Assembly: GCA_017416765.1 (NCBI GenBank)
Contig: JAFQBE010000030.1
Location: 1-64,000, forward strand
Reading direction: 5' to 3'
Source: Clostridia bacterium
GTDB taxonomy: Bacteria > Bacillota > Clostridia > Oscillospirales > Acutalibacteraceae
Length of the DNA stretch: 64,000 nucleotides
Made by a program: the position numbers and the translations under genes. This document shows, piece by piece, positions 25,446 through 30,894 of this stretch. Position 1 is the first letter of the stretch; each line of letters starts with the position of its first letter. Below the pieces are notes generated by a model. It ran no database searches and was not told where the DNA came from. It saw only the letters and a list, made by a program, of their open reading frames with translations.

Positions 25446-25478
25446 ATCGTATCACTCCTGATATATCCGATTAACAAT

Positions 25479-25506
25479 ATTATACCATTTTACATAATAT
25501 ATACAA
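25479..25506 (-). promoter_or_regulatory. SigA-type promoter of cdd operon
   Basis: On the minus strand TTGTAT (25506-25501) and TATAAT (25484-25479) are 16 bp apart, 33 nt before the cdd start. Confidence 0.75.
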
Positions 25507-25564: not shown

Positions 25565-25789
25565 ATGCGTATGAACGAGCCCAACCGTATGAGCTGCGAT
25601 ATCTGCAATAAGCGCAATGACCTGCAGTTTCACCGCCATGTGCACCCGTTCCCCGATGATTTTGCAGTAGCTATGGCATATGTGCCCATGCAGACTGATA
25701 CATCGGTTTACGATTGCAAGCAGGCTCTGTGCGAGGGCACGCTTTTCCCATGCCTCAACAAACCTTTTAAAAGAGGGTGCGTTAAATGA
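25565..25789 (+). CDS. cotJA: spore coat protein CotJA
   Basis: 74 residues. The segment AVAMAYVPMQTDTSVYDCKQ followed by ALCEGTLFPCLNKPFKRGC is the CotJA domain. CotJA is needed for assembly of the CotJ proteins in the inner spore coat of Bacillus; the order cotJA-cotJB-cotJC is kept here. The N-terminal 28 residues carry an extra CDIC pair and several His residues. AGGAG at 25551-25555 serves the ATG. The stop overlaps cotJB by 4 nt. No convincing sporulation-sigma promoter could be fixed in the 120 bp upstream, which is shared with the cdd promoter. Confidence 0.9.
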   Translation: MRMNEPNRMSCDICNKRNDLQFHRHVHPFPDDFAVAMAYVPMQTDTSVYDCKQALCEGTLFPCLNKPFKRGCVK

Positions 25790-26040
25790 ACTCAAACAGA
25801 GCAGAGCTTACCAAAAAGCTTGCCGCGGCAGATTTTGCGCTGTGGGATTTACATCTTTACCTTGATACCCACCCCGATGACCTGAGTGCGGTAGGACTTT
25901 ACAATAAGCTGCAGAAAAATGCGGCAATGCTCAGAGCAGAGTATGAACAAACCTGCGGCAAACTCACAGCCTTTGATGCACAGGGTGTCGAATGGCTGTG
26001 CGACCCCTGGCCGTGGGAGAAATGCGGGTGTGATGGCTGA
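25786..26040 (+). CDS. cotJB: spore coat protein CotJB
   Basis: 84 residues with the CotJB signature: FALWDLHLYLDTHPDDLSAV, then LYNKL and the ending GVEWLCDPWPWEKCG. It is an inner spore-coat component. It overlaps cotJA by 4 nt and its stop shares a base with the ATG of cotJC (TGATG), so the operon is translationally coupled up to the point where cotJC is interrupted. Confidence 0.92.
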   Translation: MNSNRAELTKKLAAADFALWDLHLYLDTHPDDLSAVGLYNKLQKNAAMLRAEYEQTCGKLTAFDAQGVEWLCDPWPWEKCGCDG

Positions 26041-26150
26041 TGTTTGTTTATGAAAAGAAATTACAGTATCCTGTAAATATCAAAACCCCCAACGCAAAAC
26101 TTGCGCAGGTTATCGTAAGCCAGCTCGGCGGCACGGACGGTAAAAGGTGA
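26040..26150 (+). CDS. cotJC: cotJC 5' part, interrupted by an inserted element
   Basis: ATG 26040 opens MFVYEKKLQYPVN, the unmistakable start of CotJC, the manganese-catalase-like spore coat protein. The homologous reading stops after codon 34 (ending QLGGTDG); two foreign codons and a TGA at 26148 follow. The rest of the gene resumes at 30380. Joining the two parts at the CGGACGG repeat gives a complete 202-residue protein in frame. As it stands this fragment encodes 36 residues and is not functional alone. Confidence 0.93.
   Translation: MFVYEKKLQYPVNIKTPNAKLAQVIVSQLGGTDGKR
26134..26140 (+). other. left attachment core (attL) of the cotJC element
   Basis: CGGACGG, identical to 30380-30386. 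It falls in the same reading phase of cotJC in both places (spanning codons 32-34: third base of one Gly/Thr/Pro codon region, GAC, and GG of the Gly codon), so the exchange leaves no scar. Confidence 0.85.
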
Positions 26151-26153
26151 TAA

Positions 26154-27578
26154 TCAATAGTAAAAAAATAAAGAGAAGGTTTTTTCGAGCTTATTGAACA
26201 CCACTTTTCTGATAATTGAACGCAGGGCTTGGTTTTTAGCTTCGGTTGATTTTTCAGGGTCGGTGATTATGTTAAATATTTTTTCGCACCGTTTGCTGTA
26301 TGTGTATATATCTGCTTTTTTTGCTGTAATTTCGTTTAGTTGATTTTCAAGCTTTTGGATAGCTTTTAATATTTCGTCTTTATTCGCTTTGTATTCTTCT
26401 GTGCTGTCTATTCCTGTAAGGTAAGCTTTCTTTGCCCGTTCAAGTTTAATTTCTTCCTTTTTTATCAATGCGGAGTAATCAATTGCTGAGGCAGCTGCTC
26501 TTTCTGTTGGTTGAATTGTAAAAGAGCAGTTTTTTACGCAGTTTTGCAACGCCTGAACAATAATTTTCTCAGCTCTTTCTATACTGACGCAGTGCGATAC
26601 CTTGCAATCTCTGCCTTTGGTATACTGATGGCACTGAACATAAAAATCTCTTGATTTTACCAGCGTTGCACCGCAGTTACCGCAGTGCAGCAGCCCTTTC
26701 AGCATCCATTCGTGCGGTTGTTCCGCCCGCTGATATCTGCCGTATAGCTGCTTTTGTTTTTTAAGCTTTTCCTGCACAGCTTCCCAGGTTTCTATGTCTA
26801 TAATCGGTGTGTGTTCACCGTCAACAATAAGTATGTCCGGGTCATCAAAGTTTCTGGTCTTTGAAAAAGAATTCTCACCGCTTGACCAGCGTATTTTGCC
26901 GATATATAAAGGGTTATACAGCATATACTGAATTGTTCTTGCTTCAAGCGGGTTGCCTTTGCGGGTAGTAAGACCGGCTGCGGTGTATTTGATTGCAATT
27001 TGCCGTATCGTAATACCGTTCAGATAATCTTGAAAAATTTGCTGAACAAATACTGCTTGATGGTTTGGTATATATTTCTTGTTAACGAGGTCGTAGCCTA
27101 TTGCAGGTGCGCACATGGCTTCGCCGCGGCTTGCTTTTTCAAGCATACCGCGCTTTACTTCGGTTGAAAGGTTAATCAGATAGTATTCGTCCATCCATTC
27201 TATAATACGCTCAATCAGTTCGCCAAAGGGAGAATCTGTAATTGGTTCGGATATACTTATTACCTGTATGCCCTTTTTACGGAGAATGTTTTTGTATACT
27301 ATGCTCTCTTCCTGGTTTCGTGCAAAACGGCTGAACTTCCACACAAGTATTGCTTCAAACGGATTGTTTTTATCCTTAGAAAGTGCTATCATCCGGTTGA
27401 ATTCGGGACGCTTTTTTGCTGTTTTCGCAGATATGCCGTCATCATAAAACACATACTCCGGCGGAACAAAATATCCGTTTTTTTGCGCAAATTCATTTAT
27501 TAATTTCAGCTGTGAGTCGGGCGAATATTCGTCCTGCCGTTCGTCCGAAACCCGTATATAAGCTGCTGCTGTTTTCAT
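26154..27578 (-). CDS. large serine recombinase
   Basis: 474 residues from the ATG at 27578, which has GGTGAT in front; a second ATG four codons upstream is possible. The catalytic domain begins AAAYIRVSDERQ with the nucleophilic Ser at residue 11, followed by VWKFSRFARNQEES. The recombinase domain (about 165-260) has GYDLVNKKYIPN and YNPLYIGKIRW, the zinc ribbon CGNCG plus CHQYTKGRDCKVSHC follows, then a coiled coil. The architecture is that of SpoIVCA and SprA, which excise intervening elements from sporulation genes, and of phage integrases. It should cut and join at CGGACGG. Confidence 0.95.
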   Translation of the reverse strand: MKTAAAYIRVSDERQDEYSPDSQLKLINEFAQKNGYFVPPEYVFYDDGISAKTAKKRPEFNRMIALSKDKNNPFEAILVWKFSRFARNQEESIVYKNILRKKGIQVISISEPITDSPFGELIERIIEWMDEYYLINLSTEVKRGMLEKASRGEAMCAPAIGYDLVNKKYIPNHQAVFVQQIFQDYLNGITIRQIAIKYTAAGLTTRKGNPLEARTIQYMLYNPLYIGKIRWSSGENSFSKTRNFDDPDILIVDGEHTPIIDIETWEAVQEKLKKQKQLYGRYQRAEQPHEWMLKGLLHCGNCGATLVKSRDFYVQCHQYTKGRDCKVSHCVSIERAEKIIVQALQNCVKNCSFTIQPTERAAASAIDYSALIKKEEIKLERAKKAYLTGIDSTEEYKANKDEILKAIQKLENQLNEITAKKADIYTYSKRCEKIFNIITDPEKSTEAKNQALRSIIRKVVFNKLEKTFSLFFYY

Positions 27579-27663
27579 AATTATCACCATTAATAATCTA
27601 TTCTTTTTGCAGTTTTGTCATAACACAGTCTGAAAATAAATAGATATAAAACGGGTGATTGCT

Positions 27664-27843
27664 GTGGTAAAAAAAGAATATACATACAAGTGCTTTGTTG
27701 AACACTCCGACGGACGGGTTGAACGGCTTGAGGATATATCACAGGCAGAAAAGGAAAGGTTGGCTGAACTTTGGGGTCAGCGCGTGGCAGAGACCTTGGC
27801 TCAGTATTATTCTGCTAATCCGGAGGAGTTCGGGTTGGCTTGA
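27664..27843 (+). CDS. small acidic protein divergent from the recombinase
   Basis: 59 residues from GTG 27664; GGG at 27653-27655 is the only weak Shine-Dalgarno, and an in-frame GTG lies at 27655. The product starts MVKKEYTYKCFVEHSDG and contains a charged helix (SQAEKERLAELWGQRVAE) ending in PEEFGLA. I do not recognise a named family. Small proteins next to serine recombinases are often recombination directionality factors, so it is the best candidate in the element for the excision partner, but that rests on size and position only. Confidence 0.6.
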   Translation: MVKKEYTYKCFVEHSDGRVERLEDISQAEKERLAELWGQRVAETLAQYYSANPEEFGLA

Positions 27844-27874
27844 CTTTTTTAGGAATATAGCAGGCTTTATTTTT

Positions 27875-27917
27875 GCTGTTTGTTTTCGGCTGCGGAAACA
27901 GGCGGCATTTTTCTTTT
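27875..27917 (+). terminator. terminator of the small-protein gene
   Basis: GCTGTTTGTTTTC (27875-27887) pairs over 13 bp with GGAAACAGGCGGC (27894-27906), using several G-T pairs, and is followed by ATTTTTCTTTTT. It isolates the small gene from the next promoter. Confidence 0.7.
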
Positions 27918-27919
27918 TA

Positions 27920-27949
27920 GTGTAACTTTGTTGAAAAAACTGCATTTTA
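27920..27949 (+). promoter_or_regulatory. ECF-type promoter motif, copy 1
   Basis: GTGTAACTTT at 27920 and GCATTTTA at 27942-27949, with an AAAAA run between. It matches copy 2 (28839-28868) at 24 of 30 positions with identical spacing. It lies 41 nt before the 60-residue gene. The TGTAAC-like -35 and fixed spacing recall ECF sigma promoters. That the element's own sigma uses it is inference. Confidence 0.65.
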
Positions 27950-27989
27950 TTTTCGGCGGTTTTTGCTGTTAAACAACAGGAGGCACCGA

Positions 27990-28172
27990 ATGTATAAAGA
28001 AATTTTTTACGATAATAACCATATGTATGTTGCCGTTTTAGAAAACGGCGCTTTTATTATAGCCTATGAAAATGGCACGGCGATTGACTTGCAAGGAAGA
28101 AAATATAAACATATTACCGAATTTGATGAAAACGATGTTATGATATCCGATGGTTGGGAGCTTGCAGAATAA
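27990..28172 (+). CDS. 60-residue protein of the element, unknown function
   Basis: Starts at ATG 27990 with a perfect AGGAGG at 27978-27983; the frame is open from 27963 but without a site. The product, opening MYKEIFYDNNHMYVAVLENG and ending SDGWELAE, is acidic, strand-rich and soluble, with no signal peptide. No family recognised. It sits behind promoter motif copy 1 and ahead of the sigma-factor gene's own promoter, so it is probably a one-gene target of that sigma factor. Confidence 0.7.
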   Translation: MYKEIFYDNNHMYVAVLENGAFIIAYENGTAIDLQGRKYKHITEFDENDVMISDGWELAE

Positions 28173-28234
28173 CCCTAATTTAGAATAGTAAACACAGCAA
28201 AGCCGTCTTTGTTTTCGACAATATAAAACAATAT

Positions 28235-28263
28235 TTGCAATTTTAAAAATTTATGTTTATAAT
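28235..28263 (+). promoter_or_regulatory. SigA-type promoter of the element's sigma gene
   Basis: TTGCAA (28235-28240) and TATAAT (28258-28263) are 17 bp apart, 39 nt before the sigma-factor start. The sigma gene is thus probably made by the housekeeping polymerase while its targets carry the other motif. Confidence 0.75.
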
Positions 28264-28302
28264 TACTTTATATTTACAAAAAACAGAAATGGAGTTTGTA
28301 GT

Positions 28303-28833
28303 ATGAGTGATTCACAAGAAAGAATATATGAAGAAATATGGAATAAGCATGTCGTGGCGGTGAGGAACTTTTGCTACACCAAGCTGAACGGTCGCCCGGA
28401 GGATGCCGAAGATATGCTTATGTCCGCATTCGGACTGCTGTGGAAAAAGATTGTTACGGATGATGTGCCGCCCAACCCCAAAGCGTGGCTTTTGGCAACC
28501 GTAAACAATTTATCGTATACAGAATACAGGCATACCGAAAAGGATAAAAACAACATGACTAAAGCACCGCTTAATGAAACGGTTGCGCTTTATTATTTGG
28601 TTGACGATGTTGCGGAAGTTCTGGAGAAAGAGGAAAGGAACGCCGAACTCTGGAAGATATTGCTGGAAGAGCTTAACAATGAAGAACGGTATATATTGAA
28701 GTGCGATACGGTTGACGGTATTCCGCAGGCGCAGATTGCCGAAATGATAGGCAAAAATCACGGTTCAACCAAAGCGCAGATATTCAGGCTGAAACGCAAA
28801 ATTAAACTGTCGAAAAAAGAAAAAATTTTTTGA
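28303..28833 (+). CDS. ECF-type RNA polymerase sigma factor
   Basis: 176 residues with the two-domain layout of ECF sigma factors. Region 2 covers about residues 10-85 (FCYTKLNGRPEDAEDMLMSA, then NPKAWLLATVNN); region 4 covers about 115-172 (LNNEERYILKCDTVDGIPQ, then AQIAEMIGKNHGSTKAQIFR). It should direct polymerase to a small set of promoters; the best candidates are the two related motifs in the same element. The gene is followed 53 nt later by the anti-sigma candidate, with motif copy 2 in that gap. A very basic tail (KLSKKEKIF) ends the protein. Confidence 0.88.
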   Translation: MSDSQERIYEEIWNKHVVAVRNFCYTKLNGRPEDAEDMLMSAFGLLWKKIVTDDVPPNPKAWLLATVNNLSYTEYRHTEKDKNNMTKAPLNETVALYYLVDDVAEVLEKEERNAELWKILLEELNNEERYILKCDTVDGIPQAQIAEMIGKNHGSTKAQIFRLKRKIKLSKKEKIF

Positions 28834-28838
28834 TTTTC

Positions 28839-28868
28839 GTGTAACTTTTTCCGAAAAATCGCATTATA
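28839..28868 (+). promoter_or_regulatory. ECF-type promoter motif, copy 2
   Basis: GTGTAACTTT at 28839 and GCATTATA at 28861-28868, 24 of 30 positions the same as copy 1. It starts six bases after the sigma-factor stop codon and is 18 nt from the anti-sigma start, giving a very short predicted leader. It would drive anti-sigma and the secreted protein. Confidence 0.65.
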
Positions 28869-28886
28869 GAGATAGAAGGGACAAAT

Positions 28887-29759
28887 ATGGCAGAAAAAAT
28901 TGAAATCACAAAAGAAATGCTTGAAAAAATTCTTTCAGAAAAAAGCATGGAATTTACCCTTGAAGAAATTGAAGAATTAATGAATTCCGAGGTTGAAAAG
29001 CCTGAGGATGAAATGGATACCGAGCTTGTTGATATGTGCGCCGAAATATTGGCAAAAGCATACAACCCCGGCTTCAATGCAGAAAAACCTGCAAAAATGT
29101 ATCGCCCCTGGGAAGCGGAAAACAAAGCAGAAAATGTAACACCCGCAAAGCCAAACAAAAAGCGCGCTGTTCGTTTTAAATATGTTGCTTTGGTCGCAGC
29201 AATCCTTGCCGTGCTTGGGTTTATTGTTGCTTTGCCCGCAGGCGCAATGCTGTTTGATGACCAAGCTTCGGGCGGAATAATTGAGTTCTATGCGGATTTT
29301 TTCCATATTAATTTAAATAAAGATAAACCGTCGGCTGACGATATTCCGCAGAACGATGCCGTCAGCAATATGATTATAAATAACCTCGATAATTTTATGC
29401 TGCCGGAAGTGCTGCGCGGTGAGGAATACAAGAAGCAAGGTCGCTTGACACAAGATGATTTTATGACAACATTCTATATTGATTTAGTAAATGCTACAGC
29501 GGGTATAAGCGGATATATTCAAATAGTTCAATATAATGATATAAGTCACGCTATGACGAACGGTCAGGTTAATGTTCCTGATAATACATATAACTACTTT
29601 AAAGAAATTTTAATCGAAGGTAAACAAATAATTGTATTTGGAAAAGGGGAACAATCCTATATTAACTATTCCGACGGTGCTACAAATTTTGAGATTTTGC
29701 TTGACTGTGATTTTGACACTATGGTTTCAATTGCCGAAACAATAAATGTTAAAGGATGA
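28887..29759 (+). CDS. membrane anti-sigma candidate (DUF4367-like)
   Basis: 290 residues. The N-terminal 95 are acidic, helical and cytoplasmic (LEKILSEKSMEFTLEEIEE). One membrane helix follows at about 97-120 (YVALVAAILAVLGFIVALPA). The outer domain of about 170 residues (MLPEVLRGEEY, QIVQYND, IIVFGKGEQSYINYSDG) resembles DUF4367-type domains of anti-sigma factors in Clostridia. A role in holding the adjacent sigma factor at the membrane until an outside signal is inferred from topology and gene order. Ribosome site GAAGGGA. Confidence 0.75.
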   Translation: MAEKIEITKEMLEKILSEKSMEFTLEEIEELMNSEVEKPEDEMDTELVDMCAEILAKAYNPGFNAEKPAKMYRPWEAENKAENVTPAKPNKKRAVRFKYVALVAAILAVLGFIVALPAGAMLFDDQASGGIIEFYADFFHINLNKDKPSADDIPQNDAVSNMIINNLDNFMLPEVLRGEEYKKQGRLTQDDFMTTFYIDLVNATAGISGYIQIVQYNDISHAMTNGQVNVPDNTYNYFKEILIEGKQIIVFGKGEQSYINYSDGATNFEILLDCDFDTMVSIAETINVKG

Positions 29760-29768
29760 TATAAAATT

Positions 29769-30275
29769 ATGAAAAAATTTCTTCTCTCGGTTATTTCAAT
29801 TATTATGGTTGTGTTTACCCTTGTGCCTACCGCCTTTGCGGCGAACGAACAGCCGCCCGAATGGCAGGATTTGATATTGACGGAGGAAGAATTCAACGCA
29901 ATCTTATCCAACAATACTATCCACACAGTTGATGAAGAAACACGTGCTACCGGTTTGATTGCGGCTTATGCCATAGCAATTTCCAAAAGCGGAACAAACA
30001 CATTAAACATTGCAGGTAAAACCACAGGTACAACGGAAGTTGTTAAAAGCGGTTTTAAAGAAATTGTTGTTCAACGCAGAACAAGCAGCAGCGCATCGTG
30101 GACCGATTATTATACATATGAAGATGTGTATATTAATGAACCTGCTTATACTATAGGCAAATCCCTTACCGTTCCTACCGGCTATCAGTACCGCGTAACC
30201 TGTATCCACTACGCAAAGAAAAATATCTTCTCCGTTCAGAAAATTGATAATGTTTCAAATGTTATTCAGTTTTGA
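29769..30275 (+). CDS. secreted protein of the element, unknown function
   Basis: 168 residues. A clear signal peptide (MKKFLLSVISIIMVVFTLVP, then TAFA and cleavage before ANEQ) is followed by an acidic linker and a strand-rich domain with repeated Thr/Ser segments (NTLNIAGKTTGTTEV, RRTSSSASWTDYYTYEDVYI). No cysteine-rich or catalytic motif is seen and no family is recognised. It lies 9 nt after the anti-sigma gene, so it is probably induced by the same sigma factor and might be its signal sensor or effector at the surface. Confidence 0.75.
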   Translation: MKKFLLSVISIIMVVFTLVPTAFAANEQPPEWQDLILTEEEFNAILSNNTIHTVDEETRATGLIAAYAIAISKSGTNTLNIAGKTTGTTEVVKSGFKEIVVQRRTSSSASWTDYYTYEDVYINEPAYTIGKSLTVPTGYQYRVTCIHYAKKNIFSVQKIDNVSNVIQF

Positions 30276-30311
30276 TTGAAAAGTAAAATCAAAGCTCCTT
30301 TTTTGACTGCG

Positions 30312-30335
30312 CCCCGAAGGCTTTGCCCTTCGGGG
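30312..30335 (+). terminator. hairpin at the right end of the element
   Basis: CCCCGAAGG (30312-30320) and CCTTCGGGG (30327-30335) form a 9-bp perfect stem; a modest T tract follows. It would stop sigma-module transcripts before the right attachment site. Confidence 0.7.
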
Positions 30336-30379
30336 TTCAGTTTTGCTGCTGTTTTATCTCCTTTATCCACCCAGCGGTC

Positions 30380-30386
30380 CGGACGG
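30380..30386 (+). other. right attachment core (attR) of the cotJC element
   Basis: CGGACGG, the second copy of the direct repeat, at the exact position where CotJC homology resumes (PDGELGASMRYLNQRY). Confidence 0.85.
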
Positions 30387-30894
30387 CGAGTTGGGCGCCT
30401 CCATGCGCTACCTTAACCAGCGTTATGCAATGCCCTGGGGTGAACTCAAAGGCTTGCTGACCGATATCGGTACGGAAGAGCTTTCTCATATCGAAATGGT
30501 TGGTACATTGCTTTATCAGCTGACAAAGAATCTTACCGTTGATGAAATTAAGCGGCAGGGATTTGATAAATACTTTGTTGACCACACAACAGGCGTTTAC
30601 CCTGTTGCGGCAAGCGGTATGCCGTGGACTGCTGCTACAATCCAGTCAACGGGCGATACCTTGGCAGACCTTTACGAAAACCTTGCCGCAGAGCAAAAGG
30701 CGAGAAAGACCTACGATAACATTCTCCGCCTTTCCGATGACCCCGATGTAAGCGATGTCATAAAATTCCTGCGCGCAAGAGAAGTTGTCCACTTCCAGAG
30801 ATTTGGCGAAGGACTTCGCTTTGTAACTGATAAGCTCGACAGCAAGAATTTCTATGCCTGCAACCCAAGCTTTGACAAAAACTGCGGCTGCTGA
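30380..30894 (+). CDS. cotJC: cotJC 3' part, interrupted by an inserted element
   Basis: The remaining 168 codons of CotJC resume at GGACGGCGAG and end at TGA 30894. The product is the manganese-catalase-like coat protein: LTDIGTEELSHIEMVGTL and EQKARKTYDNI and REVVHFQRFGEGL carry the Glu/His ligands of the dimanganese site. The frame is open upstream to 30343, but those codons belong to the element and have no ribosome site. The intact protein would have 202 residues, the normal CotJC length, with no other damage, so the coding sequence is under selection despite being split. Confidence 0.93.

Follow-up and report, generated by a model that had tools for sequence, protein, structure and literature searches.

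A serine recombinase element within the spore coat gene cotJC of Clostridia may be excised to rebuild the gene during sporulation

Introduction

Several sporulation genes are described as interrupted by DNA that is cut out to rebuild them. The skin element, which encodes a large serine recombinase (LSR), lies in the mother-cell gene sigK of B. subtilis and C. difficile, and its excision rebuilds the gene (PMC5025042, PMC10747680); SPbeta in spsM, vfbin in spoVFB, and yin in yabG are likewise reported to be excised with the same outcome (PMC4191935, PMC10747680). The gin element in gerE of B. cereus is described as a nonprophage element with an LSR (GirC) and a recombination directionality factor (RDF; GirX), with crossover at the center of an inverted repeat (PMC5595907). 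The heterocyst interruption elements of cyanobacteria, in nifD and other genes, are excised in the differentiated cell, and the account in PMC4874684 gives 10 of 87 interrupted genes with several elements (one nifD with four) and 48 serine recombinases. The published sporulation cases that we found (sigK, spsM, spoVFB, gerE, and yabG) are each reported with a single element in the gene. We met no cotJC element of the skin, SPbeta, gin, or yin kind in the literature searched, and the main text of the yin paper (PMC10747680) does not contain the term “cotJ.” Here, we describe an element of 4,246 bp, its LSR intact, that interrupts cotJC in a 64,000-nucleotide stretch of Clostridia DNA (the window) and a cotJC split that, as a widespread and multielement phenomenon, appears to be newly seen.

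Results

cotJC is a Mn-catalase spore coat gene in the cotJABC operon. In the window, its N-terminal part starts at 26040 and its C-terminal part ends at 30894, and the joined frame encodes 202 amino acids. The features of the locus are as follows.

25474..25501, plus strand: sigmaK-like promoter of the cotJ operon, AC-N17-CATANNNTA, at about the same place in 8/8 genus members examined
25565..25789, plus: cotJA, intact (Pfam CotJA, 2.1e-16)
25786..26040, plus: cotJB, intact (Pfam CotJB, 1.2e-23)
26040..26131, plus: cotJC exon 1, codons 1 to 30 and the GG of codon 31, homologous to the N terminus of intact CotJC
26130..26131, plus: probable attL crossover dinucleotide GG, codon 31 positions 1 and 2 (attP symmetry maximum)
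26132..26155, no strand: right arm of attP, in attL (attP symmetry analysis)
26132..30377, no strand: putative excisable element, 4,246 bp (repeat spacing and attP symmetry)
26154..27590, minus: LSR, 478-aa open reading frame (ORF), likely start at 27578 (Pfam Resolvase, Recombinase, and Zn_ribbon; phrog_95 integrase, 2.3e-105)
27655..27843, plus: 62-aa ORF, candidate RDF (phrog_26314, 7e-11)
27963..28172, plus: small ORF, ATG at 27991 (no PHROG and no significant Pfam or NCBIfam match)
28303..28833, plus: ECF-type sigma factor, cargo (TIGR02937, 1.8e-15)
28887..29759, plus: 290-aa protein with one hydrophobic stretch, cargo (no significant family match)
29769..30275, plus: 168-aa protein, N terminus signal-peptide-like as judged by eye, cargo (relatives in G010 and G003)
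30354..30375, no strand: left arm of attP, in attR (attP symmetry analysis)
30376..30377, plus: probable attR crossover dinucleotide GG (attP symmetry analysis)
30378..30894, plus: cotJC exon 2, third base of codon 31 to the stop (Pfam Mn_catalase, 1.9e-42)

A sequence-only reading of the locus had recognized the split from the 4,246-bp spacing of CGGACGG (26134-26140 and 30380-30386) and from the 202-aa joined frame, and had called cotJA and cotJB intact; all of this stands, the last through the Pfam matches. Its choice of CGGACGG as the crossover has been given up: this is sequence that both ends share next to the crossover, with a third copy at 27711, and attP symmetry favors the GG of codon 31. 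Across 10 codon-31 breaks with both sides available, including that of the window, the symmetry shows a single sharp maximum at bases 1 and 2 of the codon (0.727 versus a mean of 0.282), so that the most likely crossover in the window is this GG (26130-26131 and 30376-30377), the symmetry center of attP. Joining there gives back the conserved LGGPDGELG; the joint, formerly read as LGGTDG, falls between LGG and PDGELG and carries the proline of nearly all the intact relatives shown. The element thus has att sites with a shared core whose joining restores the cotJC frame. Because conservative site-specific insertion always restores the frame, this is by itself no evidence of function.

The Resolvase, Recombinase, and zinc-ribbon domains of the window LSR all score above the Pfam cutoffs, and the protein sits in a codon-31 LSR clade. 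The 62-aa ORF has counterparts (55 to 66% identical) in the elements of three genus mates; an iterated profile finds homologs at 6 of the 13 codon-31 LSR loci and at 29 of the 75 viral ones. It may serve as the directionality factor and matches a PHROG family of unknown function. The ORF at 27963..28172 has no counterpart in eight genus-mate loci sets. In the cargo, the sigma factor matches a sigma-factor PHROG, the 290-aa product may be anti-sigma-like to judge by gene order and position, and relatives of the 168-aa protein adjoin cotJC in G010 (61% identical) and G003 (78%). Among the six element ORFs tested, no phage structural or replication family was matched besides the integrase, and the element, as judged from its genes, would not be classed as a prophage.

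The split extends well beyond the window. An orthologue of CotJC is present in 75 of 97 genomes (our own and relatives) and is split in 33, with breaks at five fixed sites (codons 31, 55, 62, 136, and 175) and one to three breaks per related carrier. Each site has its own LSR clade or clades, six over the five sites: on the tree of 54 LSRs bearing five site labels, there are 4 label changes against a shuffled mean of 26.3, and none of 200 shuffles was as low (rows G012 and G048x of the first tree version were replaced or dropped in the second). At every site, the best attP symmetry center falls on codon positions 1 and 2, peaking at 0.73 (codon 31, GG), 0.78 (codon 55, AA; next best, 0.58), 0.57 (codon 62, GG), 0.61 (codon 136, GA), and 0.66 (codon 175, GA). 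In a genus that we take to be Ruminiclostridium, the codon-31 LSRs belong to an unrelated clade and use this GG too (symmetry, 0.83), and the codon-62 center is again best, if less sharp (0.52; next, 0.42). A further candidate split gene, L129, was rejected: its frame shifts within a run of Gs, probably through an error of sequencing.

Discussion

We are fairly confident in reading the 4.2-kb segment as a gene-intervening element that its LSR would excise to rebuild cotJC, most likely in the sporulating mother cell. In this model, whose excision, timing, and RDF are read from sequence, the element's own LSR, probably with the small directionality factor, would recombine attL with attR at the codon-31 GG; the element would leave as a circle, and cotJC would be rebuilt. 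The most likely setting is the mother cell, with the operon probably transcribed from a sigmaK-type promoter. Because the mother cell dies, the germline copy in the spore would retain the element. Clostridial cotJC is, in this model, a repeated, ancient target, and where elements are stacked, up to three, all would have to go.

The timing of expression bears on this model. The sigmaK-like promoter of cotJA recurs in all eight genus members examined, which are related sequences, against a summed shuffle expectation of 0.14, the pattern having been picked after viewing the alignment and after a sigmaE-like scan (ATA-N16-18-CATANNNT) that gave no match upstream of cotJA, the LSR, or the 62-aa ORF. 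An AC in the −35 region is described for sigmaK, the −10 being common to sigmaK and sigmaE, and the cotCB and cotD operons are reported as lowered in a C. difficile sigK mutant (PMC3789822); B. subtilis cotJC is listed under sigmaE (PMC3416734). The sigmaK-like promoters fit mother-cell expression, and from promoter and listing together, we read the window cotJC as a sporulation gene interrupted by an element.

Could excision instead promote mobility, or act as an on/off switch in vegetative cells (active lysogeny), with cotJC repair a by-product in some cells? We think this unlikely as a general account, while it could hold in some species alongside mother-cell excision. The yin element in yabG is reported as excised at all culture time points (PMC10747680), and the DNA upstream of the window LSR and of the 62-aa ORF yielded no sigmaE- or sigmaK-like site, a CATA block in three of four genus members being all that precedes the ORF. 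Against such a switch, the only recognized phage gene of the window element is its integrase, the cotJ promoter looks to be of the mother-cell type in the 8/8 genus members and in 3/3 Ruminiclostridium loci examined, and a sigmaK-like site precedes 5 of 11 Ruminiclostridium LSR operons (0.27 expected; the five form one clade).

Another alternative is that ordinary LSR phages or islands land on conserved cotJC motifs and that the gene is dead in carriers, whose insertions would be too recent for the pieces to look decayed. In keeping with this, 8 of 75 relatives of the window LSR in IMG/VR contigs adjoin a cotJC piece, and split status varies between close species, with empty sites in G005 and G008 where G004 is split and in G003 where G010 is split; the comparison with relatives that the sequence-only reading looked to thus did turn up intact genes. 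The codon-175 LSRs of G030 and G049, from different genera, are nearly alike, which points to recent transfer, and the window species' own insertion could be recent, given intact G005 and G008.

Selection and age argue the other way. The absence of decay noted earlier holds across 19 split genes that assemble to 197 to 201 codons from exons each open from site to site, so that no inactivating change is seen in those genes. The pieces were taken from stop-to-stop open frames, and the lack of internal stops is therefore partly built in; a fairer test is that the mapped exon ends coincide with the sites, except at contig ends, in extra copies, and in a paralogue. Since the mapped exons reach the sites, stops flagged in G043, G086, G093, and others appear to lie past the break in the alignment. 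In codon fits from our own scripts (kappa = 1.1), omega is 0.043 on split tips and 0.041 on intact tips (26 split and 87 intact genes), and forcing omega to 1 on split tips worsens the fit by 926 lnL; these fits left out seven split genes with fewer than 120 codons, pieces of G001, G008, G038, G040, G060, G066, G072, and G090, and extra 3' copies, one of G004's being retained. In Ruminiclostridium, codon 31 is broken in 11 of 11 species (in G347, the N-terminal part alone was found). In G212, codon 62 is broken too. With G152 excluded as a long branch, exon omegas are 0.045, 0.024, and 0.027 and the LSR omega is 0.077; synonymous tree lengths are 5.76 for exon 3 (nine taxa) and 5.65 for the LSR (10 taxa), and the LSR codiverges with cotJC. 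An all-split genus, low exon omegas, and matching synonymous lengths together indicate that the break predates the genus and that the gene stayed under selection. In the window's genus, LSR identities of 80, 76, and 71% track deoA (78 and 76% in the two mates with deoA) and the topologies agree, which is only suggestive of vertical descent; with four taxa and intact sisters, the age argument rests on Ruminiclostridium. Synonymous distances, with pairwise dS often above 1, are close to saturation.

The split thus seems old and the interrupted gene still working, in which case regular excision would be needed. Up to three elements occur in a single 202-codon cotJC with the exons still open, which also tells against dead genes. 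SpoIVA is kept in 30 of 33 split genomes in the relatives sample (the other three are less than 90% complete), though also in 39 of 41 contiguous ones. In the window genome, where a second intact cotJC would have told against the sequence-only reading, the sole other Mn-catalase match is a 37%-identical paralogue elsewhere, a type of gene that the intact G005 and G008, two species of that genus, carry as well; G290 does have an additional contiguous cotJC. All told, we consider dead genes improbable. The skin- or SPbeta-like reading has gained support from empty sites, purifying selection, the all-split genus, its codiverging recombinase, and the cotJA promoter. The att structure, the clustering of LSRs by site, and the presence of SpoIVA also count in its favor.

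Could the pieces work as separate protein fragments, given that the large ones are all open frames and evolve under purifying selection? This is barely credible, since certain internal exons are merely about 31 codons and a 21-nt micro-exon could not act as a protein. Direct joining of exons 2 and 3 at codon 62 in G126, G261, G289, and G346 gave garbled codons and one stop, a failure that led to the prediction of a micro-exon of seven codons (codons 55 to 62) implied by an unseen codon-55 element; it was present in all four of these Ruminiclostridium genomes, in the correct place and on the correct strand, an outcome that also favors the excision model.

To generalize the preferred reading of regular excision, we think it likely that cotJC in many Clostridia is a multipart gene assembled by programmed DNA splicing in each mother cell, a process that, in at least one genus, was already obligatory when its species began to diverge and has stayed so. 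If true, such early obligatory splicing would make several LSR systems a standing part of spore coat development in at least that genus. Are the elements parasites that the death of their host cell has tamed, or do they serve as useful timers? How are several LSR/RDF pairs coordinated within one cell? Both are testable. The loci also provide naturally occurring collections of LSRs with their att sites, in which one crossover dinucleotide serves unrelated enzymes. For annotators, the lesson is that cotJC in pieces is unlikely to be a pseudogene.

Comparison with known systems

Like skin, the window element carries an LSR within a mother-cell sporulation gene; sigK, however, has one element, whereas in cotJC there are five sites and six LSR clades, and as many as three elements can coexist. 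SPbeta, vfbin, and yin also lie in spore envelope or other sporulation genes but are described as prophages or prophage-like, in contrast to a 4.2-kb element with an integrase as its only recognized phage gene. The gin element shares the nonprophage LSR organization and the crossover at an inverted-repeat center; it is described as 28.6 kb long with three recombinases, in another target gene and lineage. The heterocyst elements come from a different phylum and cell type, XisF resembles the window LSR only weakly (107.7 bits versus a cutoff of 375), and the text of PMC4874684 available to us mentions no micro-exon like that of cotJC. Our analysis suggests that bacteria related to that of the window reassemble cotJC during sporulation by cutting and rejoining their DNA. 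A single coat gene that six or more LSR clades target across a class, and in which both stacked elements and a micro-exon occur, would be a sporulation counterpart to heterocyst excision.

The split gene and its element in the window

The sequence-only description of the window was borne out: cotJA and cotJB are intact, and the two parts of cotJC, the Mn-catalase spore-coat gene, lie 4,246 bp apart. The large serine recombinase (LSR) of the intervening element is on the minus strand, its ORF ending 22 bp from the crossover, and within this element we recognised no phage genes besides the integrase.

Features of the split locus
26040 (start) to 30894 (end of second part): cotJC, broken in codon 31
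27655-27843: 62-aa ORF of the element, candidate recombination directionality factor
28303-30275: operon in the element; products: ECF-type sigma factor, 290-aa protein, and 168-aa protein whose start resembles a signal peptide
Also in the element: a second small ORF

The window comes from a genome of 2.77 Mb that is 98% complete and has a sporulation genotype: SpoIVA scores above its cut-off, and there are two long open genes of sigmaE/K type, each scoring below the SigK cut-off. A second intact cotJC elsewhere in this genome had been raised as evidence against a developmental element; the sole other Mn-catalase match is a 37%-identical paralogue.

Distribution of split cotJC

A first sample of 97 genomes, drawn from the window's own genome, genus, family and order, gave a CotJC match in 78, three of which (G021, G061 and G091) hold the paralogue alone. 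Among the remaining 75, cotJC is contiguous in 41 (including G038 and G090, which carry pieces as well as a contiguous copy), split in 33 and unclear in 1 (G060, both pieces at contig ends). At least one break has both flanks in hand in 23 of the 33 split genomes; the others show one flank only, and the pieces of G028 and G039 end at the contig end. Nineteen of the 33 split genes assemble to 197-201 codons. SpoIVA is found in 30 of 33 split genomes, 39 of 41 contiguous genomes and 10 of 19 genomes without a CotJC match.

A second, partly overlapping sample of 243 class-wide genomes (at least 95% complete) gave CotJC matches in 158. Of the 142 whose best match was listed, 89 are contiguous, 30 start near codon 62, 15 start near codon 31 and 7 break off early (near codon 175 or 136), leaving 1 of another kind; some of the partial matches may be contig ends. 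The best 80 named loci (codons 36-202) comprise 68 contiguous and 12 noncontiguous records. L129, one of the 12, was rejected as a split gene, being a probable sequencing error. Ten of the 12, L129 included, were searched further: the N-terminal part was located elsewhere in the genome for eight of the other nine and was not found in that of L065. One of these records is Ruminiclostridium cellobioparum subsp. termitidis CT1112, in which the two parts lie ~76 kb apart on one contig.

Crossover sites and their recombinases

To place the crossovers, attP was rebuilt from both half-sites of 29 two-flank breaks in the window and its relatives (one of them from G090), and dyad symmetry was scored around every possible dinucleotide. 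A single clear best centre emerged at each site (means 0.28-0.29).

Crossover dinucleotides by symmetry
Codon 31 (10 breaks): GG, symmetry 0.73
Codon 62 (10 breaks): GG, symmetry 0.57
Codon 136 (4 breaks): GA, symmetry 0.61
Codon 175 (5 breaks): GA, symmetry 0.66

All four best centres fall on the first two bases of a codon for a conserved Gly or Glu, and at a fifth site, codon 55, symmetry places the crossover at AA (0.78, next 0.58). For the window, symmetry shifts the joint from the CGGACGG proposed earlier to 26131|30378, giving LGGPDGELG.

The LSRs near cotJC breaks are site-specific. An initial 34 grouped by site once two mis-picked rows were set aside; after these rows were corrected and Ruminiclostridium was included, the set of 54 LSRs resolves into clades for codon 55 (n=4), codon 62 (n=15), codon 136 (n=3) and codon 175 (n=8), and two unrelated clades for codon 31 (n=13 and n=11) that use the same GG. 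Site labels change 4 times on this tree, the minimum possible, while shuffled labels average 26.3 changes, with 0 of 200 shuffles as low (quick method). The codon-175 LSRs of G030 and G049 (L150, L183) resemble each other very closely, with end branches of 0.11 and 0.02, although these genomes belong to different genera, which could reflect recent transfer or mis-binning.

A predicted micro-exon and the order of pieces

In four genomes (G126, G261, G289 and G346), exon 2 ends near codon 56, yet exon 3 retains the codon-62 right arm; we therefore predicted, ahead of any search, a further element and a 7-codon exon in between. Scanning 541,864 strand bases for the pattern LTDIG (base-shuffled expectation, 0.8) returned 6 matches. 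Each of the four genomes contributes one predicted micro-exon, in gene orientation and accompanied by the attP arm expected there (which in G289 lies on the exon-3 contig). Of the other two matches, one falls in G345, where this exon is unsplit and serves as a positive control, and one is unrelated. Measured from the micro-exon, the Ruminiclostridium codon-62 break is again centred on GG (0.52, next 0.42).

Closed or near-closed genomes resolve exon order. In G092 (four exons, the last a weak match at 8.6e-5) and in G126, G212 and G261 (three each), the exons follow one another in gene order along a single strand of a single contig; the three of G225 are in order provided its single contig is circular. 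Of the four exons in G030, three are in order on a single contig. G192 fits no simple order, with pieces on opposite strands: a weak N-terminal match (C1 225284-225487, minus) and a C-terminal piece (C1 452992-453495, plus), perhaps inverted or unrelated.

The cotJC halves lie 157 kb apart on one contig in G134 (C1 2541492-2698809) and 118 kb apart in G191 (C7 758233-876341); these gaps could represent very large elements, stacked elements or rearrangement. G001, G008 and G004, the last with three copies, carry additional cotJC 3' ends (codons ~168-201) separate from the main gene, at loci L187 (6569-6661), L188, L189, L140 and L141; perhaps codon-175 elements bring their own 3' end, or elements are stacked. 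Of 75 IMG/VR contigs bearing an LSR related to that of the window (L228-L302), 8 include a cotJC piece broken at codon 31; 4 of these pieces have a second end near codon 63-68.

Selection and antiquity

The codon analysis covered 26 split genes and 87 intact ones. It put omega at 0.043 for split tips, 0.041 for intact tips and 0.096 for internal branches; setting omega to 1 on split tips is 926 log units worse. Recent insertion could yield a low omega on split tips, but the genus of G126, which we take to be Ruminiclostridium, removes most of this escape. All 11 species have the codon-31 break (in G347 the N-terminal part alone was found, with an LSR adjoining), and no contiguous orthologue was found in any of them. 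The main clades of the LSR and cotJC codon trees agree; disagreement lies within the G261/G289/G346 group and in the placement of G152, and several nodes of the cotJC tree are weak.

Selection in Ruminiclostridium (omega; lnL cost of omega=1; synonymous tree length)
Codons 1-31: 0.045; 54; 3.96 (9 taxa)
Codons 32-56: 0.024; 72; 6.78 (9 taxa)
Codons 63-194: 0.027; 308; 5.76 (9 taxa)
LSR: 0.077; 905; 5.65 (10 taxa)

Based on the 11 broken genes, these omegas and the synonymous lengths, the codon-31 break predates the Ruminiclostridium crown, and both gene and recombinase have been kept under selection. The structure, antiquity and selection of split cotJC are well supported.

The element and its cargo in the window's genus

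One LSR is common to G000 (the window's genome), G004, G006 and G010, the latter three at 80, 76 and 71% identity to the first. These values are close to those of deoA (78% in G004 and 76% in G006, with no deoA found at the G010 locus), and the LSR branching matches that of SMC. Intact cotJC in relatives, a comparison proposed from the sequence alone, was found: the gene is contiguous at the same codon in G005 and G008 (both nearest to G004) and in G003 (nearest to G010). Because split G004 and G010 have contiguous nearest relatives, the element seems to be gained and lost cleanly.

The sigma/290-aa/168-aa operon accompanies cotJC: it lies within the element beside exon 2 in the window and G010 and just downstream of intact cotJC in G003 (relatives' loci: L195 5561-7547; L143 5936-7847).

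Control signals and comparison with known systems

We infer the excision of the element and its timing. All 8 genus members examined carry AC-N15-18-CATANNNTA/G upstream of cotJA (0.14 expected), as do the 3 Ruminiclostridium loci examined. In Clostridioides difficile, the cotCB and cotD operons are sigmaK-dependent, the sigmaK -35 element being AC, and a third Mn-catalase gene, cotG, is assigned to sigmaG (PMC3789822). In all 11 Ruminiclostridium genomes a small MTKKEILDEVIEILIKKA-like ORF (~41-53 aa; L314-L332), a possible LSR partner, lies upstream of the codon-31 LSR and reaches or overlaps its start. Five of the 11, which belong to a single clade, have a sigmaK-like site ahead of this ORF. 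No such site was found ahead of the window LSR.

Sporulation gene elements in print include skin, SPbeta, vfbin, gin and yin. Our search of the open-access literature, at the level of titles and abstract openings, found no cotJC element, and "catalase" is absent from the main text of a survey of LSR targets (PMC10083194). In C. difficile R20291, prophage phi027 adjoins a 678-bp CotJC-like Mn-catalase gene, CDR20291_1465 (PMC11222575). Multiple elements per gene are already known in heterocyst cyanobacteria (PMC4874684).
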